A stretch of 64,000 bases of DNA from Phanerochaete sordida (Eukaryota > Basidiomycota > Agaricomycetes > Polyporales > Phanerochaetaceae). Location: contig BPQB01000074.1 in the NCBI GenBank assembly GCA_019973155.2, positions 62,001 through 126,000 of the forward strand, written 5' to 3'. The notes below the pieces were generated by a model. The model saw nothing but the letters and a program-made list of their open reading frames with translations. It was not told the DNA's origin and ran no database searches. The position numbers and the translations under genes were made by a program. Positions 855 through 37,765 of this stretch are shown in pieces. How positions within the stretch are numbered: position 1 is the stretch's first letter; every line of letters begins with the position of its first letter.

Positions 855-884
855 TTACGATTTCTGAATGAAATGAAGAATCGT
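855..884 (-). other. Helitron-type terminal hairpin, copy 1
   Basis: The terminal 30 bases contain ACGATTTCT and AGAATCGT as stem arms around a loop of about 11 bases, at the extreme end of the arm. The same hairpin ends the right arm (37736-37765) and a third tail (40128-40157). Flanking bases differ in all three, so 855 is a true element boundary. A hairpin at the very 3' end, without an obvious CTRR tail, resembles Helitron2/Helentron termini; this class assignment is an inference. Confidence 0.7.
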
Positions 885-2909
885 CTTTACGGGTGACAGC
901 TTTGGGACCTTTTCAGCACCGTTACGAACCTTGGCCCTATGCGTGGGAACTTTGTTTGTTACTTCAATACACAATATTTAATCTCCGCTTCAATTCATTA
1001 CAAAGTTTGTATTGTAACTTGGCCGATTTTTTCAGCCTGGTGTGCTTGGTCTTTCAAGTTGATACTGCATCCATGCATAGATATGGACCTCAACTATGCA
1101 TCGGTAACACTTAGCTGCTTGGCTTGCTCAATGAGCCCATGCAATTGTGCCTTCTTTTCTGAGCACTTAGGTCAAGTGTCACGTGCCAGCACAGAGGCCT
1201 CACTGAAAGGTGGCCACATTGTTATATGTATACTACAAGTAGATAGTGCTCATCAGTAGCTTTCAGAATGTGTACATATGTTGCATAATTTCAACATCCT
1301 TGTGATGCAAAACAGAATATAGCTTATAAGCCTAGCGCTTAACAAGCGCCCACCAAGCGCTTACCTGCTGCAGCCAGAGGTCAACATGCATTCAAACTAG
1401 AAATAGCCTTGCTATGGACCTATACACATATGTTAAGTCTTGCATACCAGTCTATGGATCCAGCAGCTGTATGCAGCTGTCTATACAGTAATAATTGATT
1501 AACGGACTAAATAAATGTACTACAACCCCAGGTATGAAGCAGTATCTTTATTGTTGCTATCAAAAATGGTACGTTGCACACAAGATTGTATGTGTACTGT
1601 TCAGAATGATAAGTAGCAAAATTCCGAGATTTATTCACGGCTTACAGTAGCATTTTACTGGGAAAATCTTCAACTTGACGTGATCAGCTTAAGTGCATAA
1701 TCCTACATACTGCAAGGTCTCAACTACTTATGCAATACTATATACAGTATGCAAACATGTTGCTGAGATCTAGTCACATGGTATATCTGAGTTTTGCAGA
1801 AGCATACACTCTTTGAGATGAAGGCTTATTTTGAGCGCAATGGCCAAGTTTAAAAGGGTATCAGTAGCACCAAGCACATGCAAACAGTGCCTGTTGACCA
1901 TAGCCGCATAGTTCCAGTATCTCTAGGATTTTGCTTGCATTCTTAGAAGCTGAAAAGGGCTCCAGCCCTCTGATGTTACTTGTTGTTCTTGATTACATTA
2001 CACAGAATCATGTGCACTCTTTGCTACAGTGCTTACTAGCCTGGGTAATTCAGCATTCTGGCCTAGCGCAAGAGTGAATAAGCATCAGCAGGGCAACAAG
2101 AAACATCGTTTGGCATACTAGAAAAACACGGAAACCATCTGCAGACCATGACACTATGTTGGTCTGGCATACATGAAGCTTTCTCACTGAGCAGCAGCTT
2201 GTCGACTACAGTTCTGTATTCAAATGATTAGTCATTATGGTCTGATAATACAGCATGCACTCATAGTTATTAGGCACTATATGCTGTGGACCAATGGCTG
2301 GTTGTGTAAAGCCACAGACATGCAAGGTGGTTAAAGGTAAGTGCTTATTTCTAGTGCACTTTGCCAGTTTGAAACAATGGTGATGTCATCAAAACTATGC
2401 ACACAGATCTTCAGATTATAATTATATTTAGCTGCTATTACTAACATTTTACACAAGCCCTGATTCTTGGAATTTTCAGTTCCAGTACAGAAAACCTCTA
2501 TTTTGGCGGTGGCTGCCCAATTGGATCATCATTGATAGCATCAACAGTATGCAACATGCACCTCTGGATTATATTCTCATTTTTCCGATATTTGTAGCAT
2601 TTTGTGTGGGCTTGCAACTACTTAAAAGCCCCAATATTGGTGTGATTTCCTGATTGAGACACTGTTGATGGCATCAAAACCGTACAACCAGCACCTCTGG
2701 ATTATAATCTCATTTTTCCCATATTTGTAGCATTTTGTGTAAGCCTGCAAACACGTAAAAGCGCTGGTGCTGGTATGCTTACCTAATAGGACCACCGCTG
2801 ATGGCATCAAAACTATACAACAAGCCTCCCTGGAATATACTATGATTTTCCCGATATTTCTAGCATTTTATTTGAGCTCTCCAGGGCGGAAAAGCCCTGG
2901 AGGCCTTCA

Positions 2910-3001
2910 TTCTTGCTTATGCAGCTCCGATCACGTAGGGAAAGTGCGTACCTCCCTGAGGTACGCGTTTTCCCTACGTGATCGCTGGATGTAAGCAAGA
3001 A
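2910..3001. repeat. Palindromic hairpin element, copy 1
   Basis: Palindrome of about 90 bases. The half-site runs CTTGCTTATG, then GATCACGTAGGGAAA, then GTACCTCC, and is mirrored by GGTACGCG, TTTCCCTACGTGATC and GTAAGCAAG. It sits at the exact centre of the larger palindrome of the left arm. Copies lie at 35357-35446 and 29636-29730. Confidence 0.8.
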
Positions 3002-3154
3002 CAGGGGTCCCCACTACATTTCCGCGTTTGGGAGCTCAAATAAAATGCTAGAAATATCGGGAAAATCATAGTATATTCCAGGGAGGCTTGTTGTATAGTT
3101 TTGATGCCATCAGCGGCGGTCCTATTAGGTAAGCATACCAGCACCAGCGCTTTT

Positions 3155-3782
3155 CACTGCGGGGGTGATTCGATGTTAGCGGGTAAAAACATGGCGAAAA
3201 CATGCAGAAAACAGAAACCATGTTTCCCGTAGTGTTTTCAGCAGGGACATGGTGAGAACATGAGAAATGACGCACCGGAAGACATTCACAATGTTTTCCA
3301 GGGAAACATTGTGCATGTTCTCCGCATGTTTCTGCTCCGGAATCATGCCGGGGAATTGATTGAATGTTTTCTGCGATAACATACTGAATTTATGCGATAA
3401 TGTACCCGTTATGTTTACGCTGCTTACATTTTGCTCAAATGGAACCATATATAGTATGTTCTCTGCATGTTTCTGACGGAGTCGCATAACATGCCACAAA
3501 CATGCATTGATTGTCATGCGTGAACATGATGAAAACATTGAATCCCGTGATCTATGCTCAATTTGGTTAGAGTCATACCTCATGTTTCCCTCATGTTCCT
3601 AGCAGAAACATGCGGTAAACATGCACAATGTTTCCCTTGAAAACATTGTGAATGTTTCCTGGTGCGTCATATCTCATGATCTCATCATGTCCCTGCTTGG
3701 AAACATTGTGAGAACACGGTTTCTGTTTTCACGATGTTTTCATCATGTTTTCACCGGTTAACATGGAATTACCCCCGCAGTG
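3155..3782. mobile_element. Non-autonomous CACTG (EnSpm/CACTA-like) element
   Basis: A 628-base element begins CACTGCGGGGGT and ends with the inverse (ACCCCCGCAGTG). The inverted similarity continues about 180 bases inward, giving a foldback-like MITE rich in ATGTTT/AAACAT words. It is flanked by TTT at 3152-3154 and 3783-3785. The mirror half of the host palindrome (2752-2765) preserves the empty site with only one TTTT, so the 3-base target duplication is directly supported. CACT(A/G) termini with 3-base duplications are typical of the CMC/EnSpm superfamily. It has no coding capacity. Confidence 0.8.
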
Positions 3783-4501
3783 TTTACGTGTTTGCAGGCT
3801 TACACAAAATGCTACAAATATGGGAAAAATGAGATTATAATCCAGAGGTGCTGGTTGTACGGTTTTGATGCCATCAACAGTGTCTCAATCAGGAAATCAC
3901 ACCAATATTGGGGCTTTTGTATCTCTGCAAGCTTGCATAAAATGCTATAAATATCAGACAAATGCAATTATAATCCAGGATTGCTTGTTGTATAGTTCTG
4001 ATGTCATCAATGGAGCCCCAATTGGGAAGCTACCGCTGAAATTGAGCTTTTCTGTTGCTGGAGGCCTATATAAAATCCCAGAAATATTCCATGCCTCTCA
4101 TTGTCTTATAGAAGTGGGCTAGATGCAAAGCTGATGCTATCAGCAGCTGAGCAAGTGAGGAACAATGCTTAGAACATGTATGTCACCAAGTGTAAGCCAG
4201 AATAGATGCTCTAAGATGGAACTCCCTCTATTAGCCCAAGAAGGGGTGCTATAAGCGGTGTTGGGTTGTAAACATGGTTCAGTGTATACTCCAAACCTGG
4301 CAGGCACGCTAAATGAGTGTTTGTCACTTATCAGTGTTCAGGTTACATTGAACCACTGCTTAAGCTGCCTACTGCTGATAGCTTAGTTATCTGATTCACC
4401 TTTAGCAGTAGAAGTAATGCATCACTTCTGGGGCTTGACCCAAAGCTGTTATGTATTGCTTTGCAGTCTTCCCCATAATGCAGGGTAAATGAGTGGATAA
4501 T

Positions 4502-4582
4502 AGTAAAAAAGCGCACCTGTGCAGAATTGAACCTGCAGCCCTCTGAAAAATACCTTTGCTATCAACCGCTACACTACTTGGA
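4502..4582 (-). ncRNA. tRNA-derived (SINE-like) sequence
   Basis: On the minus strand there is a D-arm/A-box-like GTAGTGTAGCGGTT, then a T-arm GCAGGTTCAATTCTGC that carries a B-box, and then TTTTTT, a pol III-type stop. The acceptor stem does not pair, so this is not a functional tRNA but a tRNA-derived relic carried in the Helitron tail. The orthologous copy in the right arm is at 34396-34471. Confidence 0.5.
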
Positions 4583-4741
4583 ATGGCTTTCAAACTGATG
4601 CTTTTAGTGGTGAGAGATCTGTGTGTAAGTGCAGCTCACATCAGGGGTGTAGGGCTTTGGAGCTTTGGGGCTTTTGGGCTCTTGAGTTTAGAGTAGAAGG
4701 GTAATGTCTGCCCTCTCTTGTCCCGACTTGCATGTACTTGC

Positions 4742-5456
4742 ACATTATGCGACTCCTGCCGGAGTTAGGCTGCGCATCAAGGAATGGAATTCCAAGTCAA
4801 CATCAAGAAATGGTGGGAGTTCCTCTGTGCAAGGGTGAGTGTCAGGTAGAGCAGTGTATGTCAAGGAGTAGGTGTATAAGGTGTGAGAGATGAGGACTGA
4901 TACAGAACTGGGACTGGGACAACGATGGAAGACGAGACTGTGACTGGAATGACGAGGTAAGACAGCCTCAAACACAACAAAGGTTCCTCGGTGACACAAA
5001 GCCCCTCAGCGATGGGGCTGTAGCTGAACTAGACTAGACTAGACTAGACTGGACTAGACTGGACTAGACTGGACTAGACTGGACTAGACTGAAATGATGA
5101 AGGGCTTGCTTGCACTCTGAGAAGTCTGTATTTGCGGTGAATGTCTGTTTATTGAATGCACCGAGGTGCCATTTAAGTACTACAGCCACTCAGAAACTGC
5201 CGAGGGACTGCGCAGCGCCTAAGGCACTCGTGCTCAAACACCTCATGCAGGCCCTCCTCGCTGCCCCTGCCTACCTCGAGGCTCCCAAATCTTCCAGTCT
5301 TCTGGTGTGTGCCTCAGAGCTTTGCCTGAAAGCGACTGCGTCCTGTGCTTCTGTGTTGAGTATGTGCATCGAGGTGTCACACCTTGAGCGACCATATGCC
5401 AAGTTGCCGCGCTTGTGAGAGGCATGGCGGAGCTGCACCTCGAGGCGGCTTATACC
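4742..5456 (-). mobile_element. Solo-LTR-like insertion in the left arm
   Basis: This block of about 715 bases is absent from the right arm at the matching place (34252-34258). The right arm runs directly from GTGACA into GGCAAGTACATG. On the minus strand the block opens TGTGACGGTATAAGCCGCC and closes near GGAGTCGCATAATGTGCA, which suggests TG...CA long-terminal-repeat edges. I could not fix a clean 5-base target duplication, so the exact ends and the LTR label are tentative. It contains the ACTAGACTGG microsatellite and no convincing gene. Confidence 0.45.
5027..5090. repeat. ACTAGACTGG microsatellite
   Basis: Short tandem array that starts as ACTAG pentamers and becomes ACTAGACTGG decamers. 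It lies inside the LTR-like block. Confidence 0.9.
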
Positions 5457-5813
5457 GTCACACTAGTATTGCTACTAGCCAGGCAATATTACCAGGCTGA
5501 GATTATAGTGAAACCACTTTCATCCATACAGTATCTCAAAACTATGGCTTTTAGTTCTGACATCTTGTCTGAATCTGAGAGCTCTTTCTCTTGACTTTTG
5601 TAGCTCTCCATACATTTCAGTTGGCGTGCTACCTATTGCACTTTCACAGTCTGTTCTCTTGTTCCTGGCTCACTGAATAGCTTCATCAAGGAGCTCTCTG
5701 ATGATATCAATATGATCTCTCTGTATTCTCTTTTTGTGGTGCAACATTCTTAAAATTGAGTGCTTATGCTTTGTGCACTCTCATGAAGAAATCGTACCCG
5801 CCAATTTTTGGCC

Positions 5814-7232
5814 CTACCTACCTAGTGAATTTGGCACATAGTCCGCACCTTTCCATTTTCGATAGCTATGCACAAGTTGCCTTCTGGATATACCCCCTAC
5901 AGTGACTGGAAGCTTGTTGCGGTATTGTAAGCGGGTTATTTCATTCAAAATTTCCAGCTCCCTGAACTCTTGCCTCAGTGATCCGTTGATGCCGTTTCGA
6001 ACACAGGTAGCGTCAAACCCTTGAATAATTGCAGTTCCCTGTAGTGTGGACCCTCGTGACAAGCAAGTGTACATGGAAAAGTGATTTTTGCAGTTGTTCA
6101 GATCAATCACGTTGTTTGGCCTGGTTCTACCTTGTGCACAATAGTCTGTCATAGCAAAGTTAGGATTCAAAGGCACTTGGTCACGAGCAATGTGAATTTC
6201 TTTGCCATTTGGCATTATGCATTTTATGCGCTTTGTGTAGTGATGGATAGGCACTACGTTCAAGGGCAGACCCTCCAATTGTACAGGTGTAGGTGGTGAT
6301 GTAAGTTCTACAAACACAGTTTCCAAGTGTAGTTTGCCAGACTCTGTGTCTGGTTTAACTTTCCAGCCAACCACTGTAGCTTCAGCACCATTCGTTACAC
6401 AACATTCTGTGGCAATGTTCCGCTTAATCATGACCGGTAGTCCTATGCAAAGATGGAGTTTCCCAGGATGACTTTCAGAAACCGAATGAGACAAATCCCA
6501 GAGCACTTCTTTCAGGTGCGGATTAATTTCGTTATCTAAGCGTTGAGGGTCTACTTGGTGTGTCTTCTTGTGCCTGCTTTTCTTATCCTCTTTTGGGTCT
6601 GCCTTCCACTTGTCCTCGCTGTAGAATGTTGTTAGAGTCTGATATGTTTCTTCTGCAAATTGTTTGGACTTGATCTCATTAATCCTGTCTCTATAAGCGT
6701 TCCAAGAGGTGATTACAGAGACATGATGAAAATTGGGATCACTGAGATTGGGCTGATCTGGTCCAGTTCCTACCACTCTGGAGTTGAGCAACTTGATGTC
6801 ATCTGTGTTGCACATACCATATCGCATTCGCTCAAGACAGTCTCTGAACTTTTTGTCGTCTGATGTCTGTGATTTTTGCCGCATGTTTTTCTTAAGGATT
6901 ACGACTGTTGTAAACTGGTGCCAAGCTGCTTTGCCAAGATTTACTTGTTGTCCATAGTTTGCATTTGTTGTATGTGCCTGACTTTTGGGCCCTTCTATGT
7001 ACAAGGCCTCATGGTTTGCAATGGGAGGTAATTGTGCAAAGTCACCTGATACTATCATGTTAATACCTCCAAAAGGGTCATCTGGTCGGTTTTTAGCCTG
7101 GCACATGCGTACTGAAATTTCGTAGAATCTCAGACAATCCACCATGGACAGCTCATCAAAAAATACATATTCAACACCCTTCAGGTTGTCCATAGCTGTT
7201 TGTATGCCCTGCCTGTTGCTCATAGTGTTCAT
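5814..7232 (-). pseudogene. Helitron RepHel, C-terminal helicase half (after the in-frame TAG)
   Basis: This 472-residue frame carries the rest of the PIF1-like superfamily 1 helicase. It shows a Walker B/motif II box VFFDELSMVD, then GDFAQLPP (motif III type), the motif V segment AMTDYCAQGRTRP and a motif VI-like MYTCLSRG. It is in the same phase as 7239-12803: the junction reads ...GINP-TAG-QS-MNTM... with no frameshift and no intron-like border. This is therefore the C-terminal half of one broken protein, and its apparent ATG is only an internal methionine. It ends in SLGR and a stop where the non-coding tail begins; the right arm preserves those last bases as well. Confidence 0.85.
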
Positions 7233-7238
7233 AGATTG

Positions 7239-10200
7239 CTATGGATTTATGCCCAATATGTGATGATAGGTAGATCCTCCAATTAATGCTGCAGCTGAAC
7301 CTGTAGGTGCCATACAAATGAACCTATGCATCTCGTTTCTTTCTTTGAAAAAGTGCATCAGAGCTTTGATCACTTGTGACTTGCCTGTGCCTGCCATCCC
7401 CCCAAGATACATTTTCAGCTGTTCTCCGTTGGGCTTAGATGCATGGTGTGCAATAATTTTGAACGCTCTAGTCTGGTCCCTATTGAGAGTAAATTGTTTT
7501 GCGATGTCTGACACCAGCTTCTTGGTTTCTGGATTTGGTGCTTCAAAAGACTCCTTGAGATAGCTTTTATCGACAACTTTCACCTGATCATGATATGGGT
7601 TCTGAGCATCATTGGTGTTGTTTGTCTTCTCTGGGATTTCCCCATGTTTGGCTTTGAGAATTTCAGCCCTCTTGGCACTTAGTAGCTCATTCCAAGCTTG
7701 TCCTGTCCGTTCATGACCTTGAACTTTCATAGTTTTTGCGTCCTCGTTTGGATCAGTATACACATTCTTCAGTGCTCCAATATTGCGCATTAGCCGTTCT
7801 ACATCTTGCATTTTTGTCAATCGTGTTATGAATCCTGATGACCACCGGCCATACTCTTCTGCAATTTCCTGCTGTTCTTCAGCTGTCAAAATATCCAAAG
7901 CTTCAGCACCGTAGTACATAGTGTCCAAGTGTTCTTGAATTTCGGTGTCGATAAAAGAAGGCAAGTCAGAGTTTAACCCTTTTCTGCGAGCTGCAGCATA
8001 ATCGTCCCTGGCGTCGTTACATTCATATCTAATGTGGAAGTACTTCATAATTTCGGACTGCCTCTCCTTAAATGTATAGTCTAGAAAAGCCTCGTTCCAA
8101 GACTGGTCCTCTTGTTTCAGTTCCTTTCCAGTCCTCCAAGGCTTGAAAAAAGTCAGCATAGTCATGCAATAGTCTTCTCTATTACCTTGATCTTTTCTAG
8201 GCAGTGGTCCTCCAATGAAGTCAGGAACTCTTGATTCTGATTCAGTACATAACTTGACATGATGTGTTGCATATTGAGGATGTGATTCCGCAAACAGAGT
8301 CCATGATGCACTGCGCTTTTTGGGGCGCTCTGCCTCTGTGTCAGATTCATCTGAAGCTATTTTGGTTTTATCAGAGTCTGATTTCACGTCTTCCTCATCA
8401 GAGTCCACTACAGTTTCATCATCTTCACTGTTGTCATGCAAGATCTTCTCATCCACGTTTATTTGCATCTCATGAAGCACCTCAGCATGTTCAGCTTCTG
8501 CTTCAACATCACTTGTGGACGTATCTCTCTCCATTGGGAATAAAGATGTTTTTGGAAGGTCAGCTGGTTGTGTTACTCCGTGATATGCTAAATATTCATC
8601 AAGAGCATGCAGTCGTTTTGCAGCAGTCATGGAAATCCAGGTTCTATCTCCTGCATCCCACTTGACCAAAAATCGTAGCCTGCTTTTTTGCCATTGGTGA
8701 GATAGAATTTTTTCTACCAACCATTCACCTTCTTTTTGCACCAACTCCATTTTGCTCCTGGGAATTTTGTTTTTTGTAGCCAGTCGGATCCAGTCGTACA
8801 AAGTCACACTTTCGTACTCTGGAGGTCTGTGCATGTAGTCAGAGGTCGTGCCCAAGCCAACCATTTTTTTGTCATTGGGAACAAGCACTACCTTTTCATT
8901 TGCAATGATATTTTTGTCGTCCTCCGACAAGGGATTGACTGAGCTCCATGCGTTTTTAACTTGGTTTACAAAACTTCTCCAGTAGAACTTCTGGAACTTG
9001 TGGCTTGTGTAGTGGTCAGGATGATCCAATAAATACATGCACGCCATCGGACCACCTATTTCACTTTGTGAGGTCAAGTTGTTGACAACCTTTACAAGAA
9101 TCCGTTTGGCTTTAACAAATTTGCTATCGTCGCCATTCAGCATGGTTGACTCTCTTCGAAAGATATTTCTCACTGACTCAAACATTGTATGAGTTTTGAG
9201 TGAACTTTTTGTGACATAGTCTGTAATGTATGCAACCACAGACTTGATGGCAGTTCCTGATAAAAGGCTTGTTACATCAGTGTTACACCGAAGCAGATAG
9301 GATAAAGTTGGTGTCACTGTGTTTAGCCATGTTTCGCCTTTTTTCATGATTAATGAGCCTGTATTGGTGTCTATCTGAGTTTCAGAAATAACTGGGCGAG
9401 GGAATCGTGCTTTGCAAGTGTTATATTTGTTCAATTTGCATCCAAAGAGACAGCTGTGCACATTGTTCATAAATAGAACATTGTTGACTGTGCTGATAAA
9501 CCGCTTATGCCAACTCTGTGCTGCTTCGCAGACTTTACACAAGTGTTCACAGCCGCCTTCACATGCTGGTGGCATTGGCTCTGGCAATGTCTGGGATGGA
9601 TCACAGTATGCAGGGTTATTATCCCGTTCCTGGAGTATCTCTTCTGCAAGTTCTGACATGGTTTTTCCAATAAATTCTCCAATGTGAGCTGCTTCCAAGT
9701 ACTCTACCATTTGCTTTTGAAACGTTGACTCTGGATCCAAAATTCTGTCTCTAATTTCTTGGGGGGTCAGAGAATTCTTGATCCAGATTAACATGTGCAA
9801 ATGCAATGCTAAACGGCCTTGCTGCTCTACAGTCCCATAATATCCTGCTGTTTTTCCATACAAGCCTTCGTGATCACTATCACAGCCTAGGACATGTTTA
9901 ATAAAGGCATCTACTAGGAATTTGAAAAATCGGGCACTTGCTACTGAATTTGCAGACATTAGTTTCAATCTTTGACTCTGAGTGTATGTGTTGGGAAAGA
10001 TGGCTTCTTTAGAGTCAGCAAAATAGATCGCAATAGGATGTTTTTCATCTGCTGGAGCAAACGTAATGAACCAACTAGGTGCTCCAAGATATGATGTAAG
10101 TGACCATATTTCATTACGCATGTGCTTCTTCTGCGTGTTGGAGCCGGGAACATGCGTGTTAATGTAATCAATATTGCTGATCATCTTGAAGCACTCTTGT

Positions 10201-12803
10201 TCTTCAGGGCTTAGCTCCTCAAATTTTACAGAGCCGCTCTGCAGTTTGGTAATCAGAGGTAACAGCATAGATTCTCTGGTGTTCAACACACGGTTTGCTA
10301 TGGAATCAAAGTCTGACTTTTTGGTGAGTAAGTATCCTCCTACATTACTCTTTTTTATCTGAGCATGATTGAATGCAATCAAGGGAAAGTATGGATCTTG
10401 TTGGAATCGCTTGTCATGATACATTAGTAAATGCTTTTTGTGCAGCTGCTCTGATATTTGCTGTTGTCCACGATTGTTTCCTAGGCCTCCTAATCCATAT
10501 GGAAACAGCCAAGGGAATATCTGAGGATATAACTGTGGGTTGTCATATATGCTTTCAGCATCTTCTTTTTCTCCAATCCCAAGTGCCTTGCCACCTCGAG
10601 CAAAGTGCATTAAGGCTTTTTGTTTGATTACTCCTCTTTCATCTTGATCCATCAGTCTTGTGAGCTCATCAGGAGTCAAAGTCTGCACCGTGAACGAACA
10701 TGGACCTTCTTCAGTACCTTGATCTGGCTCACTGTCATTGACTGCTGTTGACTCTGGATCCTTCGTGGCATTAACTTCTTGATACTCAACAACTACAGGA
10801 GGAACATCCTCTGGATATTCATCCATGTTTTTCTGTGAGATCTCAATGTCCTGATAGTCTATGTGGTTCAACTTCAGCCATTCTAATGCGTCAATTACTC
10901 TGTTCTTGCGTACTAACAAAGGTGTTCTTTTCCAGTCACCTGATGATGGCTGAGATGGACCCAAATACAAAAAGGCTAAGACCTCGTCTAGTTCTTCTTT
11001 CTTGGGTGGTAACACTGACATAATCTTAGGCATTGGTACAGCATGGCAAACAGCATTGCAATGCATCTTGGATTTTCTGGACTTATTGACTTGGACAACA
11101 CAGTAGTTTCTGACAACTTTGGATATTAAAAGGTGTTCTGTCCATGACAAATACTTTAGCTGCAGAGGAATATCTCCGATCCATAGTCCATTGGCAAGAG
11201 CAAGCTGTGGAATTTTGTCCTGGTTTAAGGTATCCAAACAAGCGTGACACACGTGCTCACAGCTGCGGTCTAATACAGGGCCCTTCAAATCTGTAATAAC
11301 CTTCTTCTTGGATAGTCTCTCTTTGTGTGTTACACCAGGTACTTCTAAGCAGGAAAAAATGTTATTGTCTATCAAATCTAATGCTGTAACATGTTTAACG
11401 CTTTTCAGTTCTCCGCATACTGCACATCCATATTCTTCGATGTTTTCAAATTCCATCTCCTTACAAAATCCGTTTATTATTGATCTTTGTAGCTTTTCTG
11501 AAGGTGGTTGAGGAGGAAACAGAGATTCCTTGTATTTTTTGGCGTTGTACTTTCGCTTTTTCTCCTTAAATTCAGCATCATCTGCCTTTGTTTCCTTCCA
11601 TCTATTGTGCTCTTTTAATCTCAGCTGAGCTTCGTTTTTCTGTCGATACAGACGCATTCGTTGAGCTGTTGTAAGGGGTTCTTTGTTTGCTTCAAATACA
11701 GTCAAAAACTGTGGGCATTTGCTGCAGTCATGCTCATTGATTTTTGCTATAATGTAGAACAAGTCTAATCCACGCCTGTTGCCAATCACCTTGTGCTTTT
11801 TTCCAATTTGCAGCAGCATGTTTTTTGTAGCTCTTTCACAAAGTAGTGAAAGTGGTACCTGAATTGCAGGAACACTTGCGAATACTTCTTTGTCTTTATT
11901 GTGGATATACCCTGCAATACGATATGTTTTATCAAGATTCACTTGTGCATTCGGATCTAATGCAAGCAAGTCTTCTGCAGTCCAAGACTTTTTTGCTTTG
12001 TATCCACCGCCGTAATATTTTTGATCAATTGAGACTGATTCACTCAATGTTACTTGATTACTGTGCTTCAGTGGTTCATACATAACAAAACCATGTGAGT
12101 ATACTGATGTCTGACCTATTAACATACAGAAATCTGCTCTTTTGATAAAATTCCGTTGCATTAAAGTTCTAACATAACGAATGATGTGTGCAACTTGTCT
12201 CCTAGGAACACAGAATTGCCACCAGTGGTATGGGCAGAACATCTGAGTATAGTGTAGAGTTTTCAATGGATAGCACAAGCAATTCTGGTAAGAAGCATTC
12301 TGTGTTTCAATACAGCGTTCCAATATGCTCAAGTGTTTTGTTTTGTGATTTTCAGATCTAGTTCCATGTAGGCTAGTCCACGAAGAAGACATTGCCAATG
12401 TACATTGCTTTTTTTGACAGTTCATGTACGGGAACTGTTCAGCGCTTTTGGTGATGGTGGCTGCTACCATGCTGCTAGGCAGCGAGAGTTTTGGATGATC
12501 CCTATACTCTCCTAAAGGGAGGCTACTCATTTCTTTGAAACAGCCAGAGTCCAAAGGCTGTACAGAGCTTATGGTGCCTGTTACCAGGGTACTCCTGTCT
12601 CTAAAACAGCTGGAGTCCAGAAGCTGCCCAGAACTTATGGTGCCTGGTACCAGGTTACTCCTGTGTCTGAGGCAGCCCGAGTCCAAAGGCTGCACAGGTC
12701 TTGTGGTGCCTGTTACCAGGGTACCCAGGTACATAGACCAGTCTGGGTCCATGGACTGAGCAAAGTGCATCCCTATGGCATTTGCACTCAAGTTGCAGGG
12801 CAA
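7239..12803 (-). pseudogene. Helitron RepHel with inserted chromodomain, N-terminal and Rep part
   Basis: This 1854-residue frame is the rolling-circle transposase of a Helitron. In order it shows a repetitive N-terminus; a region with Cys pairs (CSKCPQF, YGCAVCGELK); the Rep domain with its metal-binding LHLHMLIW motif (near residue 1000) and the tyrosine motif YITDYVTKSS (near 1195); a chromodomain-like insert EWLVEKIL...FLVKWDAGDRTW (near 1355-1410); an acidic linker; and the helicase Walker A GGMAGTGKS (near 1800). The expected role is nicking and strand transfer plus DNA unwinding. It stops at TAG (7239-7241), and the same frame continues in 5814-7232, giving about 2330 residues overall. 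Autonomy is doubtful unless the stop is read through. The true start codon is uncertain. Confidence 0.85.
12535..12738 (-). repeat. Three tandem 66-base repeats coding 22-residue repeats
   Basis: CAGYYNGAGTCC boxes begin at 12541, 12607 and 12673, exactly 66 bases apart. They encode three imperfect 22-residue repeats (VTGT...QPLDSGC) near the N-terminus of RepHel. The repeat keeps the frame open. Confidence 0.85.
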
Positions 12804-27356: not shown

Positions 27357-29542
27357 CTACTGACTGCCTTGCTCTTCGTCGATATCGTACATGTCATCTT
27401 GTTCATGCTGCTCATGCTCATCACGGGCTTCAGCAAGGGATTCTCCAGTAGAAGGCGCAGAGGAATGGATACGAGGGATGTGCTTGCTGCGCCTGTCACA
27501 GCGTGCCGACCATGACTGAAAGGCTTCAGGACGCTTGACGGATTGATCTTCGTCGTAAGAGGGCGAATCGGTGAACTGCTCCATGGAGGGCGCTTCAGGC
27601 CAGTCGCCAGCGTCCATGCGACCTTCGCCATGCTGCATAGTGACGGCGTTGAGGATGGCGGGCACGTCAACACGGACGTCCCACTCCGGAGGTAGCTGCG
27701 CCATGCACCACACTAGAAACATGACCGCAGTTCTGACCGCGAACATGAAGATGGATCTCGGCTCCATGATGGGCATGCCGTCTTGCATGTAGGACGTGGG
27801 CTGCACAGGACTGATAGACGGACGAGTGTTACTACGCAACAACTAGGTTAGAACTTGTCGGTGGACAAACAGGCAATACTTACAAACGCAGTTGATACTC
27901 TGGGCGTAGAGTGAACAAGCCAAGAAGAGGCGAAGACCTTGTAGACGGTTCTGACGAGTGACCTCCAGATGCAGCGTCAGAGGACTTGCGGTGGGGAAGG
28001 GGGATGAGGGGCATGATAGCGTCGCCATCGATAGGCATGGCGTGCGTGTAGTGGATTAACGTGAGGCGATATGGGTAGTCCTTCTGCTCAGCGTCGCGAG
28101 ACATGGGCTTCGGACTGGTGCCACCGTGCATGTGCTGCCCGCAGAAGTTGACAGCGCCGAGGCCGGCAAGGTAAGCCCCAAGACCGAGCTCAGGGAAGTA
28201 CATCATGCCCGCCAAGTAGGAGTCGGGAAGGTCAGAGCACCACACCATGATCGTAAACGTGCCGACAGAGTCCTTGTTGTCGACGTGAAAGCCGCCAAAG
28301 TCTCCAAGCTGGGCCTGAAGCTCAGAATGTGCAGACTGACCCTGCGGAGACGCGGAGGTGTTGCGACGAGTGTTCCGGCCGACGACAGGTGGATCATCTT
28401 CAGCAGGAGTAAGCAGGTCCGCCGCAGCGATGTTGATTTGCACGGCGGTGAAGGCGGTGTTCTCGTGCGCCGCGATGCGAGGAGCGTTCACCGTCGACAT
28501 TTGGGTCGACACCGCATCACGGTCCTCCTTTGGCAGAGTGTGAAACACAGCCATTGCTACGCGCGCAGAGACCTTGTAGCACAAAATCAATATATTATTG
28601 AGCGAAGACGGTCCAGAATAACTACATTGACTATCTCGTGACGCATCTTGAAGCTCGCGGGAAGCTCTGAGACGGAGGCAGCGATGGGCTCGCTGCGGTC
28701 GGGGATCTTGCCCCAAGCGACAGGGCTGTTGCACTTGGTTTGCGCCTGGTCGGTCGCGCACATCTGAAAGGCACGAGGCGAGCCCTTCACGCAGACAGGC
28801 TTGACGACTCGCTCGAGCTGAGTTCCGCCAACTGGGTTCTGAGGATCCGGCCGATCCCTCGTTCGCTCAGCGCGAGGTCCAAGCACCATCTGCTGCGCCC
28901 CCTGCATAGACTGTAAGAGGTCTGGCGGCAAAATGAGGCTGAGAGGACGTGAGTATGTAAGAAGTTCTCGAAGACGGAGGTATACGTACCAGCAATCGAC
29001 GACGTTTCCAAACAAGGTGTCTTGCATGGGGTCGGCGGGCTCGACGTCGAGGTCTCGGATGAAGACGTAGTCGCCATGGGCCAGGAGAACCCAGCCTGAG
29101 AACGTACACGGACATGAGTACGCAATCAGACGACGGCGACGATCAATCCATGGACCCAGCGCAATGAGCAAAGTGAAACTTCGCACAATGCAGGAGGGGG
29201 ACAAAGACCGGAAGACGGGAAGACAGGAGGACAGGAGGACTCACCAAGCTGATGAACGTCGATTCCTTCAGCGGGGGGCTTTGAGTTCTTCAGCCTGTTG
29301 AAGATACGCTTGAGGTAGCTCGTGCCGCCGGGCCAAAGCAGGACGAAGTGGCGGCCTTGGACATGGGCATCGGCAGGAACAAGAGGATGCTGGTCGACGA
29401 GCCAGAGCGTAGTCCAGCCCGCCTTACCGACCCTCTTCGGAACCTCAAGACGTTGCTTCAGGTCGGAGAAGGTGGGATGCTGCTCGGCGACCACTTCAGG
29501 TATCGTGTAACAGGGGGGGAAATACTTCGAAGGCGGCGGCAT
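27357..29542 (-). CDS. TET/JBP-family 2-oxoglutarate/Fe(II) dioxygenase
   Basis: Exons read MPPPSKYFPPCYTIPEVVAE...GIDVHQLG, then GWVLLAHGDYVFIRDLDVEP, then LILPPDLLQSM...KMRHEIVN, then VSARVAMAVFHTLP...QLGDFGGFHVDNKDS. The H-x-D iron pair lies at about 28270-28295 (FHVDNKD). The distal His is in FCGQHMHGGTSP (about 28120), and an Arg able to bind 2-oxoglutarate is in DYPYRLTLIHY (about 28060). All key positions are present, so the domain looks catalytically intact. The family oxidises modified DNA bases (5-methylcytosine or thymine); the substrate here is unknown. Introns are about 50-150 bases, and one holds a GCAGTGAAAC-type hairpin. The frame ends at TAG 27357-27359 but continues in phase into 24857-27344. 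Confidence 0.75.
29166..29184. repeat. GCAGTGAAACTGC hairpin, copy 2 (degenerate, intronic)
   Basis: AATGAGCAAAGTGAAACTTCGC followed by ACAATG keeps the GTGAAAC core and the AATG flanks. It lies in the first intron of the TET/JBP gene. Confidence 0.5.
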
Positions 29543-29635
29543 GCTGTCGAAGGGGCTGGGGAAGGGAACAGGACGGTGAGGAGGAAGCAGAGGGCAAAAG
29601 ACAGAGGGGAGAGGGCAAAATGGAGACGACGAGAC

Positions 29636-29730
29636 CTCTTGCTGACGCGGCCGCGATCACGTAGGGAAAACGCGTACCTCCAGGAGGTACGCGGTTTCCC
29701 TACGTGATCGCGGCCGCATAAGCAGGAGGG
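29636..29730. repeat. Palindromic hairpin element, copy 3 (upstream of TET/JBP)
   Basis: CTTGCTGACGCGGCCGC, GATCACGTAGGGAAAACG and GTACCTCC are mirrored about base 29683. The core equals the hairpins at the centres of both arms, but the surroundings are unrelated GC-rich DNA. The hairpin itself has therefore moved or been copied. It sits about 95 bases upstream of the TET/JBP start. Confidence 0.8.
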
Positions 29731-30540: not shown

Positions 30541-30648
30541 GCATTGACTGCTCCCACATCGACTTCGAGAAACGCCCTACCCTCGCACACCGTCGCTGCT
30601 GTCCTTCGACGTCTCCACCGCCCGCACCGCCGCCACCGCCGCCTAATT

Positions 30649-30930
30649 CCTGCCGCCGCCTTCGCCCTGCACCGCGCCGTTCGTCGCGTCCGATCGCTCG
30701 ACGTCAAGAATTCATTGTGGGTAGTTTCACTGCCCACATTGACGTCGACCTTCGCCGTGCTCGCTGCCGTTGTTCACTGCCGCCACCGCCGCCATATCCC
30801 TGCCGCCGCATTCGCCCTGCACCGCGCCGTTCGTCGCGCCCGATCGCTCGACGTCAAGAGTTCATTGTGGGTAGTTTCACTGCCCACATTGACGTCGACC
30901 TTCGCCGTCGCTCGCTGCCGTCGCTCTGCC
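30649..30930. repeat. Tandem 150-base repeat carrying hairpin copies 6 and 7
   Basis: CCTGCCGCCG starts at 30649 and again at 30799, giving a 150-base period with nearly two units. Each unit has GTGGGTAGTTTCACTGCCCAC (30717-30737 and 30867-30887) and then ATTGACGTCGACC. A possible promoter repeat for the gene starting at 31070. Confidence 0.75.
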
Positions 30931-31069
30931 CTGCGCTGTTTGTAGCCCGACTCCGCTACAGTACACGCACCTTCGCCGCCTGTCTACATCCTGCGCTTTG
31001 ACGGTAAGTTCTAGTCAGAATAAAGGCGACACGTACATAGTCTACTATCGTTCTAGCGTATACTCGAGG

Positions 31070-33721
31070 ATGACGACCTACAACAATATGTTCTCGCCAG
31101 AACAGAACTCTGTAAGTACCTATATCTTGTAAAGCGCACCAGTACCAAGCCTCATATCGCCACAGCTGCTGCAAACGTGCCACCCTGTCCTCGACTTCGA
31201 CGCCACGCTCGAGAAGCAAGATCGAACCTACTACGTGGGGCTACACACGAAGGAACGCCACCTCCCTGAGAACGCAGTCACGAACGACATTCCGACGCAC
31301 CCCGAGGAGCTTACACGCTTACACTGCCTCGACGACCAGACGTACTACCTCGCCTTTGTCCCGACAATCTACGAGCCAATATTCGCGAGCAGAGAGCACA
31401 CATACCACTCTCTCCCAATCATATCCGCAGAGATCAGCAAGCGAACATGGTATTTCCTCGAGCCGACAATCGCAAACAACTGGCAGCAGCTGGAAGTAGC
31501 CATCGACGACCTAATCGCCGAAATAACGAGAAATTGTCACATCCCGCTGCCTCTGAACCACGACCCCACGAAAGACATTCGTCCGTCGCGCTACCAGTTC
31601 TTGACCGGCTTCAACACCGCCTACTATGCGCGCAAAACGGCGTACAAAGCAATGACGGCCTTCACCGCGAGGCTAGCAATGCTCTCGTACGTGTACTTCC
31701 ACGCGTCGTTCAACGGCTACGACCCCTTCGAGAACCTTTCAAGTTGCGCGACGTTCACAGCAGCGTTCATCGCGGACATCAAGGGCTCCTGGGTCTGTGG
31801 GAGCAAGGTTCACCGCGTCGGCGTCTTGATAGACAGTCGAGCGAGGAGTACGACGACCGCCGATATGCAATGGCGGACGGCGATCTGGCCGTTCCTCGTG
31901 CTCGATAACCTGCCGATCTGGATTTCGTACGGCCAGCTCCCGTTCGTTGTCCCGGAACCATTCTCGCGTCACTTCCAGCCACCGCCAGAGTTGCTCGATC
32001 GCCCGCCTCAAGTTGCTGCCGTCCCTACCGCGCAGCGAGACCACCCATCGGTGTACGCCTGGCTGAGCACACGCCACGAGCAAGCGCAGCGTTATCTCGA
32101 GACAGAGTCGTCTCAGAAACGCGAAGCACGCCTGCAACGCGAGAAGTCGCAGGCAAAGCAGCCTATCCCAGGGCGACGCAGCGCGAAGGTCTATGAATGG
32201 GACTACGACGACGTAACCGACGTGTGGACGCGCGAGGGCATCAGCAACACGGACTATCAGCGGATCGAGAACGTGTGGGAGCAGACGAAGCCTGCGATGC
32301 GCGCGTACAACAGCATACGCCATGAGTACGACGTCTACTACGGTCTTATGCCGATCGTCCTCCCTGAAGACCCTTACCAGGAATTCGACGACGACGACGA
32401 CGACGACGACGACCTCTCCTACCTCCTGGAGCGACGACAAGAAGAGCGTGCGCAGCTAGCAGGACAACAAGAGGGAGCGAGCCCGAACGCACCAGCAGAA
32501 GACGCTGAACCGCTCGACAACTACTCCGACGACGACTACTCCGACGACGACTTCAAGCTTGGCGACATTCACTACCTATACGCGGTCGCCGATCGCTACG
32601 GCATACAGCTGCCGAACAATATTCACGAGACTCCCAAGATCGTCGACTTCACGAGCTACGAGCAGAGGGCCTACCAAATCCTTCGTTTCCCCATCGACGT
32701 CCCGTCAGATCACTACCGCGTCGCCGTCAGCCAAGTCACAAGCTTCGTCGATGCAGTTGCAGGCAGCATACCACCGTCAAACGACGTCGCAGGCTTTACG
32801 CCAGACCTGAGCGGTACTCCATGGTGCGCAACTCCCCTTCGGATCGAGAACTGGGACCCCGACCTGCTACGCCTTGGATGTCGCATGGACGCGCACAACG
32901 ACGAGCAGCCGTACATCCTGCACCACGTCAACGTTCCGGCTTCCGAAGAGCCGTGGCGCCTTGTGGTCTTCAGCAATACCGACGCCATGCATGCGATCCG
33001 CTATGCTATGCGCAACGACCTCAAAGCGCCGCAAGACTTGGCGTTTAGTTTGCTCTACTGGGGCATGTCGTTCCGCACGATCGCGCCGCTCGACGGGCCA
33101 ATGCCACAGCCAATTCCTAGGCAGCGCGTTGGGTTAGGCCACAAGAAGCCTAAGTACCGCTACACCGTCGATGACTACCGGGAGTACGAGCAACGTCGCG
33201 ACGCGATCCTGAGGACAAGTCAAGCTCGCGAGGTGCGCATGCTCGGCGGAGTTTTGGCGAGGCTCGCCTCCGACCATGTCACCATCAACGACGTACTGCG
33301 CGGGCCTACCATGTCGCGCTCGACCCACATCTTCACGACGATCAACGGCACCGACTACGTCGACAACGCCCTTGGCTGGCATGAGATCGATATCCTGTGC
33401 GGAGTCAGCAGAACGTGGACGCGTAAGTAAAGATATTGTCTCAATGTAGCAAATTCTCATTACGCTGTACATGCAGATTACTCAGACGCATCGAACGTCA
33501 AGAACGTCTCCTGGTGGCCGCTGCCGTCGCAATGGAAGCGCTCTGGTCAAGACGTTGGGTACTGGTCCTCTGAGAACGAGATCTGGTACCAACGCCGGCT
33601 CGCGCGCATCCTCGCAGGAGAAGAGCAGCCCAAGACGAACAGAGAATGGAAACGGGCCCTGAAATTGCAAAGCTTGACGCCGACGGTGGAGAACAACATA
33701 ACTAAGCTTCTGACCTTGTAG
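31070..33721 (+). CDS. Large conserved agaricomycete orphan protein
   Basis: Exon 1 codes MTTYNNMFSPEQNS, followed by GTAAGT. Exon 2 begins LLQTCHPVLDFDATLEKQDR and runs to NALGWHEIDILCGVSRTWT. The last exon (from about 33479) codes HYSDASNVKNVSWWPLPSQW...VGYWSSENEIWYQRRLARIL and ends TAG at 33721. Blocks such as HRVGVLIDS, the basic stretch ...REARLQREKSQ... then KVYEWDYDD, an Asp-rich run (about 32386-32412) and the C-terminal SWWPLPSQW...VGYWS...W box match a multicopy mushroom family that I recognise but whose function is unknown. No catalytic motif is evident. The gene ends 31 bases before the right Helitron arm, so it is the cargo gene next to that tail. Confidence 0.65.
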
Positions 33722-33920
33722 GCTTAGTGTATTGAAGTCCGATGTATTATGTACTAGGTAGGTAGGGCCAAAAATTGGCAGGTACGATTTCTTCATGAGA
33801 GTGCACAAAATACGATCACTCAATTTTAAGAATATTGCATCACAACAAGAAATACAAAGGGATCATATTGATGAAGCTATTCAGTGAACCATGGACAAGA
33901 GAACAGATTGTAACCGTGTA

Positions 33921-34070
33921 CTGTAGTTTCGCGATCAATGCGGCCCGAAGCGCCCAGGGCGCTTTTTTCGAGAAATGCCCAAAAATCCCATAAATTGAAA
34001 GAAAATTATTGCCGGGGTCGACAGAAAATCGTTGTGACATGTGACAGCCGCATTGATCGCGAAACTACAG
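33921..34070. mobile_element. 150-base MITE with TA target duplication
   Basis: Perfect 24-base terminal inverted repeats start CTGTAGTTTCGCGATC and are mirrored at the other end. TA flanks both sides (33919-33920, 34071-34072). The left arm has the uninterrupted site near 5620-5640. TA duplication fits a Tc1/mariner-type mobiliser; which one is unknown. Confidence 0.85.
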
Positions 34071-34395
34071 TAATATGTACCACACCAACTGAAACATATG
34101 CAGAAGTACAAAAGTCAAAAGGAAGAGCTCTCAAGTTCCAACAAGACATCAGAGCTAAAAGCCATAGTTTTGAGATACTGTACGTATTGAAGTGTGTTCA
34201 CTATAATCCCAGCCTTGTGATGTTGCCCAGTTAGTAGCAATATTAGTGTGACAGGCAAGTACATGCAAGTTTAGACAACAGAGGGTAAACATTGCCTTCT
34301 ACTCTGAACTCAAAAGCTCTAAAGCCCTAGGACACTAATGTGGGCTGTGCATACATATAGCTCTCTCATGACTAAAGCCATCTTTAACACCATCC

Positions 34396-34471
34396 CAAGT
34401 AGTGTAGTGGTTAACAGCAAAGGTATTTCTTAGAGAGCTGCAGGTTCAATTCTGCTCAGGTGCGCTTTTTT
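34396..34471 (+). ncRNA. tRNA-derived (SINE-like) sequence, right-arm copy
   Basis: GTAGTGTAGTGGTTAACA (A-box/D-arm) and GCAGGTTCAATTCTGC (T-arm/B-box) are followed by GCGCTTTTTT. The acceptor stem cannot pair. Orthologue of 4502-4582. Confidence 0.5.
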
Positions 34472-34899
34472 GCTATTGTCCACTCATTTACCCTGCATTA
34501 TGGGGAAAACTGCAAAGTAATGCATAACAGCTTAGAGTCAAGGCTCAAAAGTGATGCATTACTTTACTGCCAAAGGCAAACCAGATAATTAAGCTACCAG
34601 AAGCCATAGAAAGCTCAAGCAGTAGTTCAATGGAACCTGAACAGTGATAAGTGACAGACACTCATTTTAGCATGTCTTCTAGGTGCAGACTATATAGTAA
34701 GTATAGCTGAACCATGTTTACTACTCAACATTACTTATAGCACCTCTTCTTGGGCTAATAGAGGGAAATCCATCTTGAGATATCTAGTGTTGCTTACACT
34801 CGGTAACACACATGATCTAAGCATTGGTGCTCACTTGCTCAACTGCTGATAGCATCAGCTTCATATTGAGATCACTTCAAGATGACAATGAGAGGCATG

Positions 34900-36150
34900 G
34901 GATATCTCTGGTATTTAATATCAGCCTCCAGAGACAGAAAAGCTCTATTTTGGTGAGGGACTCTCAATTGGGCGCAATTGATAGCATCAAAACTATGCAA
35001 CAAGCAATACTGAATTATAATTGCGTTTTTCTGATATTTGTAGCATTTTATATGAACCTCCAAAGATGCAAACACCCCAATGGTGGTATAAATTCCTGAT
35101 TGAGACACGGTTGATGGCATCAAAACTGTACAACACACATCGCTGGATTATATCCGCATTTTTCTCATATTTGTAGTATTTGTTGTGAGCTTCCAGACAC
35201 ATAAACGTGTTTGTGCAAGTATGATTACGTAATGAGAACGCTATTGATGGCGTCAAAACTATACAACACGCATCCCTGGAATATCCTATCATTTTTGCGA
35301 TATTTCTAGCATTTTATTCGAGCTCCCAGGCGCAGAAATGTAGTAGAGACCCCTGTTCTTGCTTACTCATGGGTGATCACGTAGGGAAAACGCGTAGCTC
35401 AGGGAGGTACGCGTTTTCCCTACGTGATCGGAGCTGCATAAGCAAGAATGAAGGCCTCCAGGGCTTTTCCGGCCTGGAGGGCTCAGATAAAATGCTAGAA
35501 ATGTCGGAAAAATGTTAGTATATTTCAGGGATACGTGTTGTATAGTTTTGATGCCATCAGCAGCGGTCTCATTACGTAATCTTACCAACCAAAACGTGTT
35601 TATGAGTTTGTAGGCCTACACTGAAGGCTACAATTATGGAGAAAATGTGAATATAATCCAGGGATGCTTGTTGTATAGTTTTGATGCGATCAACGGCGTC
35701 TAAATGAGTAAATCACACCAGCACTGGGCTTTTGTCTCCCTGCAAGCTTGCATAAAATACTACAAATATCAGAAAAATGCGATTATAATCTAGGAACACT
35801 TATTACATGCCTTTGATGTCATCAGCACTGGCCCAATCGGAAACCTGCTGCCAGAACAGAGCTTTCTATCACTGGAGGCCTATATGAAATGCTAGAAATA
35901 CTGTAACAAATGCCATTATAATACTGACACAGTTTTGATATAAGTTTCATGCCATTGGCACCCTTCTGCCATGAAAAAGTGCATCCCTGATTGGAATTTC
36001 CAAGTTGGAGTGCTTTTCAAAGTGTACAAATGTCGAATCAAAGTGAATATAATCTGAAGATGTTCTCATACAGGTTTGATAGCATCGGCACTGCTTCAGA
36101 CTGAAAGATACCATGTTTCTAGCTCCCTTGAAATGCTAAACATCTATAGA
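34900..36150. repeat. Array of about 125-base units around a palindrome (right arm)
   Basis: Direct units with GATAGCATCAAAACTAT-type boxes lie near 34980, 35110 and 35245. Inverse units follow near 35545, 35680, 35815, 35945 and 36080 and become progressively degenerate. The mirror centre is near 35402. It is the counterpart of 2510-4070 but has no CACTG insertion. Confidence 0.75.
35357..35446. repeat. Palindromic hairpin element, copy 2
   Basis: CTTGCTTACTCATGGGT, then GATCACGTAGGGAAAACGCG, is mirrored by CGCGTTTTCCCTACGTGATC and then GCATAAGCAAG. It is at the centre of the right-arm palindrome. Confidence 0.8.
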
Positions 36151-37735
36151 AGAGGGAAACCATATTAGGCAGACTCAATTTTGGTCAGCTTCTGCTTCAG
36201 TTATTTGAGAATAGATGTGAACAAAGAAAAAAGGCAGAGGATAGAGTTCAGAGAGTGCGTTGCAGAAATAGGAGAGAAGCATATAAAAGATCTACCTGCA
36301 GATCGCTCTTCAGCAGACCCAAATTTCACATTCAAAGCACATAACCAAAGTTCTAAACAGAGTTTTGGAAACCTAACTACACAGACAGGTTCCTGCAAAA
36401 TCTATGAACACAAGGTACAGGCTGGCAATATAGGCAGACACTGCTTTACACTGTAATACTGTTGCCAGACTGGAGAACAGTCTGCAGCAACACTGAACAC
36501 AGAAATATTGGACCCTGGGCTACAGTTGCTGGACTAGAGCATATCCAGCCAAATACCCGCTGTACAGATACACAAGCATATGAAGCTGGATTATCGTTGC
36601 TGGACTACAGCTAAAATGGACAATCAAGCCGTCTCAAAGTACTTGACACTGGTCTACTTGCTAGACCAGAGTACTACAGGCAGCAGCATACTGATGTTAC
36701 ACTGAGAACACAACAAATAGAGGATGGAGCCTACTCACGATGGGAAAACACAGGCCAACAAGGACTTAGACTGCTAGAGGCTTTTCAGGAGACTTATAAA
36801 GTCTTCCAGAGAGATCATGCTATAGCATTCGAAAACAATCTACGCTATCTACTCTCAGAGATCCTTCTGCTACAAGTTCCAAGCTTCCATGGTACGCCTG
36901 CCAAGTTCTACAGTATTTTACAATATCTCTCAAAGTGTGCAGATTATTTTCGCATTTCCTGTAACAAAATGCTGCTGTGTGGTGACCTTCAAAGACCTGT
37001 TCACTCTTGCACGAAGTCAGAATGCTAAATCATCAGCTAATATCCGGACTAATGAGCGCTGCAGTAAAGTGCACATGATTTTGTGCATTCAGGAATAGCC
37101 AAGTAAAGATAATGAGCCAAAGCCCTTTTAAGCCTTTGAACACATCTTAAAGTTACTAGATCCATGTACTTGCATGCAAGGCTTAGAGCGTATGTATAGC
37201 TCCATAGCAAGACCATTTCTGCTCTGAACATATGCCAACCTCTGTCTGCAGCAGGCAAGCGCTTAGTGGGCGCTTGTCAAGCGCTAAGCTTACAAGCTGT
37301 TTTCTGTTTTGCATCACAAGAAGGTGAGAGCTATACAACATAAGTACATATTCTGAAACCCACTGATAACCTCTATCCACTGATAGTACAGCCACCATAA
37401 TGTGGCTACTTTCCAGGAGTGCCCTCAGCATAGGCACGTGACACTTGGCCTAAGCGCTCAAAGAAAGGCAAGCAATTGCCAAGGCTCATTGAGTAATCCA
37501 ACAAGCTCAGTGTAACCGATGTATAGTTGGGGCCTATGTCTATACATATACACAGTACTAGCTTGAAAGGTGAGCCACAGCAGGCTGAAAAAATTGAGCA
37601 AGTTTCAATACAAACTTTGTAATGAATTGAAGCGGAGCTTGAACTTTGTGTATTGAAGTAACAAACAATGTTCCCACGCATAGGGCCAAGGTTCGTAACG
37701 GTGCTGAAAAGGTCCCAAAGCTGTCACCCGTAAGG

Positions 37736-37765
37736 ACGATTCTTCATTTCATTCAGAAATCGTAA
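37736..37765 (+). other. Helitron-type terminal hairpin, copy 2
   Basis: ACGATTCT and AGAAATCGT pair around TCATTTCATTC, and the shared sequence ends CGTAA at 37765. Beyond it the DNA is unrelated to the other copies. Confidence 0.7.

Follow-up and report, generated by a model that had tools for sequence, protein, structure and literature searches.

What is the mobile unit in a 64,000-bp stretch of the Phanerochaete sordida genome that carries Helitron ends in both orientations, and where does that unit begin and end? The stretch (hereafter the window, positions 62001-126000 of contig BPQB01000074.1, or C74; positions without a contig name are those of the window) belongs to a genome of 40.8 Mb split over 222 contigs. 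For P. sordida, which causes white rot and belongs to the Polyporales, transformation has been established, and the draft of strain YK-624 was described as a short-read assembly of 41.2 Mb made with SPAdes from Illumina data only (PMC8530024). A preliminary description of the window had proposed a 37-kb unit bounded at 855 and 37765 by two inverted Helitron tails, here called arms, with a set of cargo genes between them. The present analysis makes it very probable that the window holds a giant gene-carrying Helitron, extending from C74:60516 to window position 40157, which was later struck by two smaller non-autonomous relatives. The suggested giant gene-carrying unit of Helitron type was thereby supported, with different bounds. 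Comparisons were made with two other contigs, C130 and C4, which hold paralogous copies within the same genome rather than alleles of another strain.

The two arms are inverted relatives of each other. In a self-comparison of the window, five blocks of 79.6-83.0% identity were found within 855-5826 versus 33753-37765: 855-1471 with 37765-37148 (81.0%), 2564-3144 with 35793-35213 (83.0%), 3782-4741 with 35206-34255 (79.6%), 5457-5637 with 34252-34072 (82.9%), and 5646-5826 with 33911-33753 (79.6%). Given that E-values ranged from 1.6e-42 to 0, this similarity is not due to chance; between the blocks, no direct inverted match was listed for left-arm positions of about 1472-2486 and 4742-5456. 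The left arm (855-5825, plus strand, 4,971 bp) has its 5' end at 855 and its CTAG at 5825. The right arm (33754-37765, minus strand, 4,012 bp) starts at the base homologous to that of the left arm, about 32 bases behind the stop codon (33719-33721) of an orphan gene. Read in their own 5' to 3' sense, both arms start with TTACGATTTCTGAATG and finish in a short palindrome followed by CCTACCTACCTAG, and both carry the same terminal hairpin, located at the 5' end. Their longest stop-to-stop frames encode 140 (left) and 137 (right) amino acids, and no RepHel frame is present. Each arm is a complete non-autonomous Helitron, TTACG...CTAG. The preliminary description was therefore right that the arms are inverted, diverged copies with the same hairpin, and right about where the right arm begins. 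Imperfect palindromes were also observed inside the arms, at 2757-3154 (about 0.4 kb, 88% self-inverted) and 34903-35900 (1 kb, 75%), and their central palindrome of about 90 bp additionally stands alone at 29635-29729.

An exact empty site was found for each arm. Contig C130 matches 387-855 (99.4%) and 5826-18594 (97.7%), the two pieces joining at C130:608 with the left arm exactly absent. Likewise, C4 matches 31838-33755 (92.9%) and 37765-40157 (93.2%), which join at C4:1213887-1213889 with the right arm exactly absent. Since each arm has its own empty site, the arms are independent insertions and not unit boundaries; they are separate insertions in opposite orientation rather than inverted tails of a single unit. 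The paralogs thus show cargo apart from the arms (C130 without the left arm, and C4, in the 5' part of the cargo, without the right arm), which is what the preliminary description had itself named as evidence against an arm-bounded unit. The bases at the empty sites, with a slash marking the junction, are GGCAT/TGAATTT for the left arm and TATA/CTCTGAG for the right arm on the plus strand. These sites fit insertion of TTACG...CTAG ahead of a host T without target duplication, and for the left arm a one-base duplication of T is indistinguishable from an element-terminal T. Among the 12 CTAG ends found in the genome, ten were read onward (nine distinct ends plus the outer end described below), and the following base was T in all ten. 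The fixed host T after CTAG, together with the palindrome, identifies the CTAG end as the 3' end and places RepHel in the sense of the outer element. The reverse polarity, with the hairpin end as the 3' end, was considered and rejected on the same grounds.

Further terminal sequences lie outside both arms. The 187-bp 5' end occurs a third time at 39971-40157, on the minus strand and oriented like RepHel, with 94.7-95.1% identity to the arm ends, 93.6-94% to C130 and 95% to C4. Its counterpart is a CTAG end at C74:60516, which is 1,485 bases left of the window, about 310 bp past the end of RepHel, and 98% identical to the last 48 bp of the arm. The 5' end of about 187 bp and the 3' end of about 48 bp are shared by the arms and the outer element, and the three 5' and three 3' ends on C74 pair as nested brackets. 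Positions 855 and 37765 are accordingly ends of real arms, but they are not the outer bounds that they were first taken to be. The outer element (positions 1-40157 in the window, minus strand) spans 41,642 bp, or 31,795 bp when the two arms and a terminal inverted repeat (TIR) element are subtracted, and about 31.4 kb when an inserted repeat of 376 bp is subtracted as well. The TIR element (862 bp, C74:61525-62386, its right part at 1-386) lies inside RepHel, is absent from C130, and has inverted ends CAGTGGCTGCAAAAAATAACGC with TA at either side; we take it to resemble a non-autonomous element of Tc1/mariner type. The repeat of about 376 bp (18595-18970) is also absent from C130, where the flanking matches overlap by 7 bases (C130:13370-13376); it has relatives of 89-94% identity on contigs C102, C68, C49, C12, and C171 and is possibly a solo long terminal repeat.

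The termini were compared with those of known Helitron types. In the outer element as well as in both arms, the 3' end has a GCCAATTTTTGGC palindrome followed by 13 letters finishing in CTAG, in agreement with the CTRR end of Helitrons and its short palindrome 10-12 nt upstream. The sequence TACGATTTCT at the 5' end recurs in inverted form some 28 bases away from the 3' end, giving an asymmetric terminal inverted repeat, and hairpins were recognized at both ends by eye and by folding, as in Helitron2 termini. The 5' end reads TTACG rather than the 5' TC, with A/T insertion, of canonical Helitron1. The elements are Helitrons by their RepHel and their ends, and they are of mixed type: the CTAG and 3' palindrome are Helitron1-like, and the asymmetric inverted repeat and 5' hairpin are Helitron2-like.

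RepHel itself is encoded on the minus strand. Its main part (5826-12803) contains DUF6570, Helitron_like_N, and PIF1 regions and an in-frame stop at 7239-7241; the gene continues past the left arm at 387-854, picks up again past the TIR element at C74:61524, and terminates near C74:60830. The C130 counterpart is 97.7% identical in DNA and remains stop-free for 2,554 codons, through the arm junction and up to the contig edge; PF14214 and PF05970 both match within this one frame, as in a Helitron RepHel protein with its HUH/Rep and PIF1-type helicase domains. The window copy is broken three ways, by the inserted arm, by the TIR element, and by the in-frame stop, which C130 lacks. The left arm, which the preliminary description had joined to RepHel as its tail, does adjoin the RepHel frame, but it is an insertion that splits the gene. 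The ratio of nonsynonymous to synonymous substitution rates (dN/dS) was estimated by a simple counting method on the paralogs for RepHel, three F-box-like genes, and the orphan gene; for RepHel it was 0.13 (C74 versus C130, 2,325 codons). In Helentrons an AP endonuclease is fused to the C-terminus of RepHel; no Pfam endonuclease was found in the 2,554-codon frame, which ends at the contig edge, or in a C-terminal piece of 175 amino acids, and comparison of this piece with Pfam and PDB gave nothing useful. A Cys...His arrangement was seen by eye at the C-terminus, which presumably recalls a cysteine protease. Deubiquitinase domains have been described from animal Helentrons (PMC9741609). A second, diverged RepHel (58% amino acid identity, two stops) lies directly left of the giant element at C74:55856-60421, and others, stop-free in the matched part, are found at C101:98338-103356 (58%) and C131:37550-42850 (55%); the search for hairpin 5' ends of this type gave nothing on C101 or C131.

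The extent of the giant Helitron was assessed from its other copies. Contig C130 is colinear with the window through RepHel, three F-box-like genes, an AT-hook-motif gene, the gene at 22691-23718, a 602-codon gene, a dioxygenase-like gene, the orphan gene, a further F-box-like gene, and a 5' end at C130:41317, with the 602-codon, dioxygenase-like, and orphan genes each doubled in C130. For C130:20001-30874 the evidence comes from protein matches only. On contig C4 the 5' part is present, starting with the orphan gene, at about 93% identity to C74. The flanks differ: window sequence to the right of 40157 has no match in C130 past 41317 or in C4 past 1216276, and the C4 and C130 flanks were compared with each other by eye over 40 bases. 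The 5' flank in C130 is a retroelement related to window positions 44977-46000, and identity stops at the terminus. In the window, a Gypsy-type retroelement was observed at 43762-46171 (integrase-chromodomain frame at 43762-44979); one of its relatives is the 5' flank of the C130 giant, and another lies beside the C4 cluster.

Identity between C74 and C130 is uneven along this length, being 94-100% up to about 20.4 kb and 55-84% thereafter; 37766-39565 is not confidently alignable, and the final 497 bp are 94% identical. C74 is similar to C4 over its 5' part and to C130 over its 3' part. These steps in identity suggest exchange between diverged giant elements, although chimerism in the assembly could also have produced them. 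A different account would posit a shorter Helitron, made up of RepHel and its near neighbours, beside clustered unrelated genes and ends, with the sequence shared by C130 and C4 resulting from segmental duplication or recombination. The drop in C130 identity past about 20.4 kb favours such an account, a number of copies are close to contig ends, a setting in which segmental exchange is common, and both outer ends are seen on C74 only. We nevertheless regard it as unlikely, because C130 gene order persists past the identity drop to the same 5' end, the similarity of the three copies ends at the same terminal base, and the genome-wide end search found no intervening hairpin 5' end on C74 between RepHel and the right arm, or on C130 besides that at 41317.

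Considerably less probable still is that similar repeats were wrongly joined in the assembly of C74 or C130. The assembly is an Illumina-only SPAdes product (PMC8530024) and many family members lie at contig ends, yet the divergence of the arms, from each other as well as from other copies, amounts to several percent or more, the empty sites are base-exact, with one of them restoring a long reading frame, and gene order agrees across two contigs. A single 37-kb unit that moves whole between inverted tails at 855 and 37765 can be set aside with near certainty, for although the arms are related, inverted, and outward-facing with a common hairpin, it is refuted by the separate empty sites in C130 and C4, by the C130 frame that the left arm interrupts, and by the terminal sequences outside both positions.

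Several observations weigh against the giant Helitron proposed here. Both outer ends were seen in one copy only (C74), since contig C130 stops short of the 3' end of its copy, and a site lacking the outer element was not encountered, the joined site not having been sought genome-wide. When the outer flanks were joined in silico, the junction fell ahead of the start codon of a neighbouring frame and gave no clear signal. Contig C4 is about 93% like C74 in the 5' part only and the middle of C130 is strongly diverged, so that no pair of copies is alike over the full length. The base preceding TTACG was G in 11, T in 9, and A in 9 of the 29 5' ends, unlike the A/T rule of canonical Helitrons. The cargo genes lie on both strands; the third F-box-like gene shows no sign of constraint (dN/dS 0.84) and has one stop in C130, and a TGA lies within the matched frame of the C4 copy of the orphan gene. 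Finally, joins across repeats may be wrong in a short-read assembly.

Cargo genes were then located individually, with genome searches run exon by exon, so that the resulting counts are lower bounds. Three F-box-like genes follow one another on the plus strand. The first (13308-14375; 97.8% amino acid identity in C130; dN/dS 0.19) has no Pfam match and keeps a label from the preliminary description, and the second (14953-16083; 99.7%; dN/dS 0.03) has a sub-threshold F-box-like match (E 0.02). The third (16745-17839; 94.8%), a paralog of the second at about 44% identity, has no Pfam match and appears relaxed or decayed. A fourth gene of this kind, on the minus strand near the outer 5' end (38668-39675), has a sub-threshold match to PF12937 (E 0.0023), 42% amino acid identity in C130, and a place within the 93% C4 block. 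The F-box-like label is thus accompanied by Pfam matches in two of the four genes, both below the cut-off.

The AT-hook-motif gene (19005-22177, minus strand, several exons with approximate bounds) was so named from three motifs read by eye, which we take to be AT-hooks. Its last exon is 94% identical in amino acids in C130, and in the genome it was found on C74 and C130, with a relative (38%) lying immediately to the right of the outer element. The conserved gene at 22691-23718 (plus strand; exons 45-74% identical in amino acids to C130) had been called OB-like, for which Pfam gave no support. An open frame of 602 codons (24857-26665, minus strand) is a conserved orphan with two C130 copies (41% and 35-40%); elsewhere in the genome, only a 31% fragment with a stop was found, on C102.

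A dioxygenase-like domain (27880-28566, minus strand), assigned to TET/JBP in the preliminary description, contains HVD followed downstream by H and R. We take HxD...H...R to be the TET/JBP motif; the resemblance is one of motif, and the TET label is unconfirmed. These residues are kept in a metagenome protein (P0002) that is 52% identical, and homolog searches gave one protein in one case and two in another, all of them unnamed ENA entries. In the genome, relatives were found on C130 only, besides C74. Pfam gave no TET family match, comparison with PDB sequences gave one weak match that was not significant (E 0.25), and a fold predicted from a two-sequence alignment was unusable (predicted local distance difference test, or pLDDT, of 31).

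The orphan gene (31133-33721, plus strand) consists of 765 codons in a first frame plus a final exon, with a C4 copy at 92% amino acid identity and two C130 copies at 33-44%. Its dN/dS was 0.245 (C74 versus C4, 529 codons). Distant relatives were found on C4 (31%) and on C141, C117, C180, and C157 (27-38%), and no homolog was found outside the genome: 7,998 scored candidates gave a single one at E 0.001, which was the fungus's own PsYK624_028630. Judged by substitution ratios, RepHel, two of the F-box-like genes, and the orphan gene show signs of purifying selection. A 150-bp unit was also seen twice in tandem (94% matches) at 30625-30921, upstream of the orphan gene.

As a member of a Helitron family, the giant element would start with TTACG at 40157 and run along the minus strand as far as CTAG at C74:60516, its 3' end being taken up by RepHel and about nine more genes lying upstream of that gene. 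RepHel would nick the 5' end, and one strand would be peeled off by rolling-circle replication as far as the 3' palindrome and CTAG. The peeled strand would then insert ahead of a host T without target duplication, so that the giant could move as a whole. The arms were presumably mobilized in trans by such a RepHel, one landing in the RepHel gene and the other just behind the orphan gene, and their inverted placement is coincidental. The cargo may serve the element by removing DNA marks, binding AT-rich DNA, or steering protein turnover. Because a diverged RepHel lies directly to the left and a relative of the AT-hook exon lies in the right flank, it is simplest to suppose that an older relative was the site into which the giant inserted. 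Further to the right, at 55721-63518, several repeats of 65-70% identity in both orientations were observed, which come from another repeated family.

Related ends were searched for in the whole genome with up to three mismatches, which gave 29 hairpin 5' ends and 12 CTAG 3' ends; reversed-pattern controls, run genome-wide at the same tolerance, gave zero ends of either type. From end coordinates, further pairs were found, for example, on C2 (5,998 and 3,859 bp), C102 (4,233 bp), and C209 (3,954 bp). The nearest partner ends were 14.5 kb apart on C4 and 20.0 kb apart on C169, and no partner end was found for the ends on C170 and C136. A 19.9-kb DNA query returned neither the window nor C130 among its matches, and the DNA match counts from that search are therefore lower bounds. 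Clusters of ends were observed no more than a few tens of kb from contig ends (C2:1.53-1.55 Mb, C4:1.20-1.222 Mb, and C107:86-98 kb) and are perhaps subtelomeric. A direct joining of Helitron ends to telomere repeats was considered and found unsupported, with no tandem TTAGGG in the eight contig-end stretches fetched.

Whether these copies represent a lineage is evenly balanced in our judgement: the Polyporales may harbour giant Helitrons of about 30-40 kb or more that keep a conserved set of their own whole genes, encoding AT-hook, dioxygenase-like, F-box-like, and orphan proteins, for their service to the element and that are reshuffled by recombination between diverged copies. Such a lineage would presumably be a rolling-circle counterpart of the giant cargo-carrying transposons of other fungi (Starships).

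Comparisons with published elements were drawn from the available parts of the cited papers. TET-bearing Helitrons are described from Puccinia graminis and Pezizales (Helitron1) and from Agaricus bisporus (Helitron2) (PMC12730594); they are alike in carrying a TET/JBP-type dioxygenase gene, the TET identity of the present one being unconfirmed. The TET-bearing elements given for Polyporales in that source are Kyakuja only, whereas here a Polyporales Helitron carries a dioxygenase-like gene among many others. HELPO1 Helitrons of Pleurotus ostreatus measure 1.5-13.7 kb and have one to four extra genes, captured downstream of RepHel (PMC4289320), whereas the present element has about 31 kb with its cargo upstream of RepHel. 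FoHeli of Fusarium oxysporum is similar in its asymmetric terminal inverted repeats, its 5' hairpin, and its non-autonomous copies, one of which is nested in an autonomous element, but it is about 5-11 kb in size, with other terminal letters and no CTAG end (PMC5148889). Closest in terminal letters is proto-Helentron-Pi of Phytophthora infestans, which shares a 5' TT, a 3' CTAG, and the lack of target duplication (PMC4067079). That element, of about 14 kb, encodes several proteins including one with a chromatin-type SET domain; it is smaller, has other genes, and inserts between A and T (PMC4067079), whereas here the 5' end is preceded by G, T, or A. Maize Helitrons reach 39 kb with up to nine gene fragments (PMC6431247), in contrast to the whole genes found here, several with signs of purifying selection. 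The available text on F-box genes and transposons in nematodes (PMC12062965) holds nothing on fungi.

TET-bearing Helitrons, nested Helitrons, the very large Helitrons of maize, and Pleurotus Helitrons with extra genes are thus already published. New here are the scale of a fungal Helitron and its cargo of conserved whole genes; no earlier report of such a giant fungal Helitron was found in the literature searched, which excluded most subscription papers and bioRxiv preprints. An element whose own DNA amounts to about 31 kb, conserved whole genes included, would extend the known range of rolling-circle transposition in fungi. It would also make it possible to test whether genes carried by an element counter silencing or steer protein turnover, and the exact empty sites establish where members of this Helitron family end and by what rule they insert, in a fungus that can be transformed.

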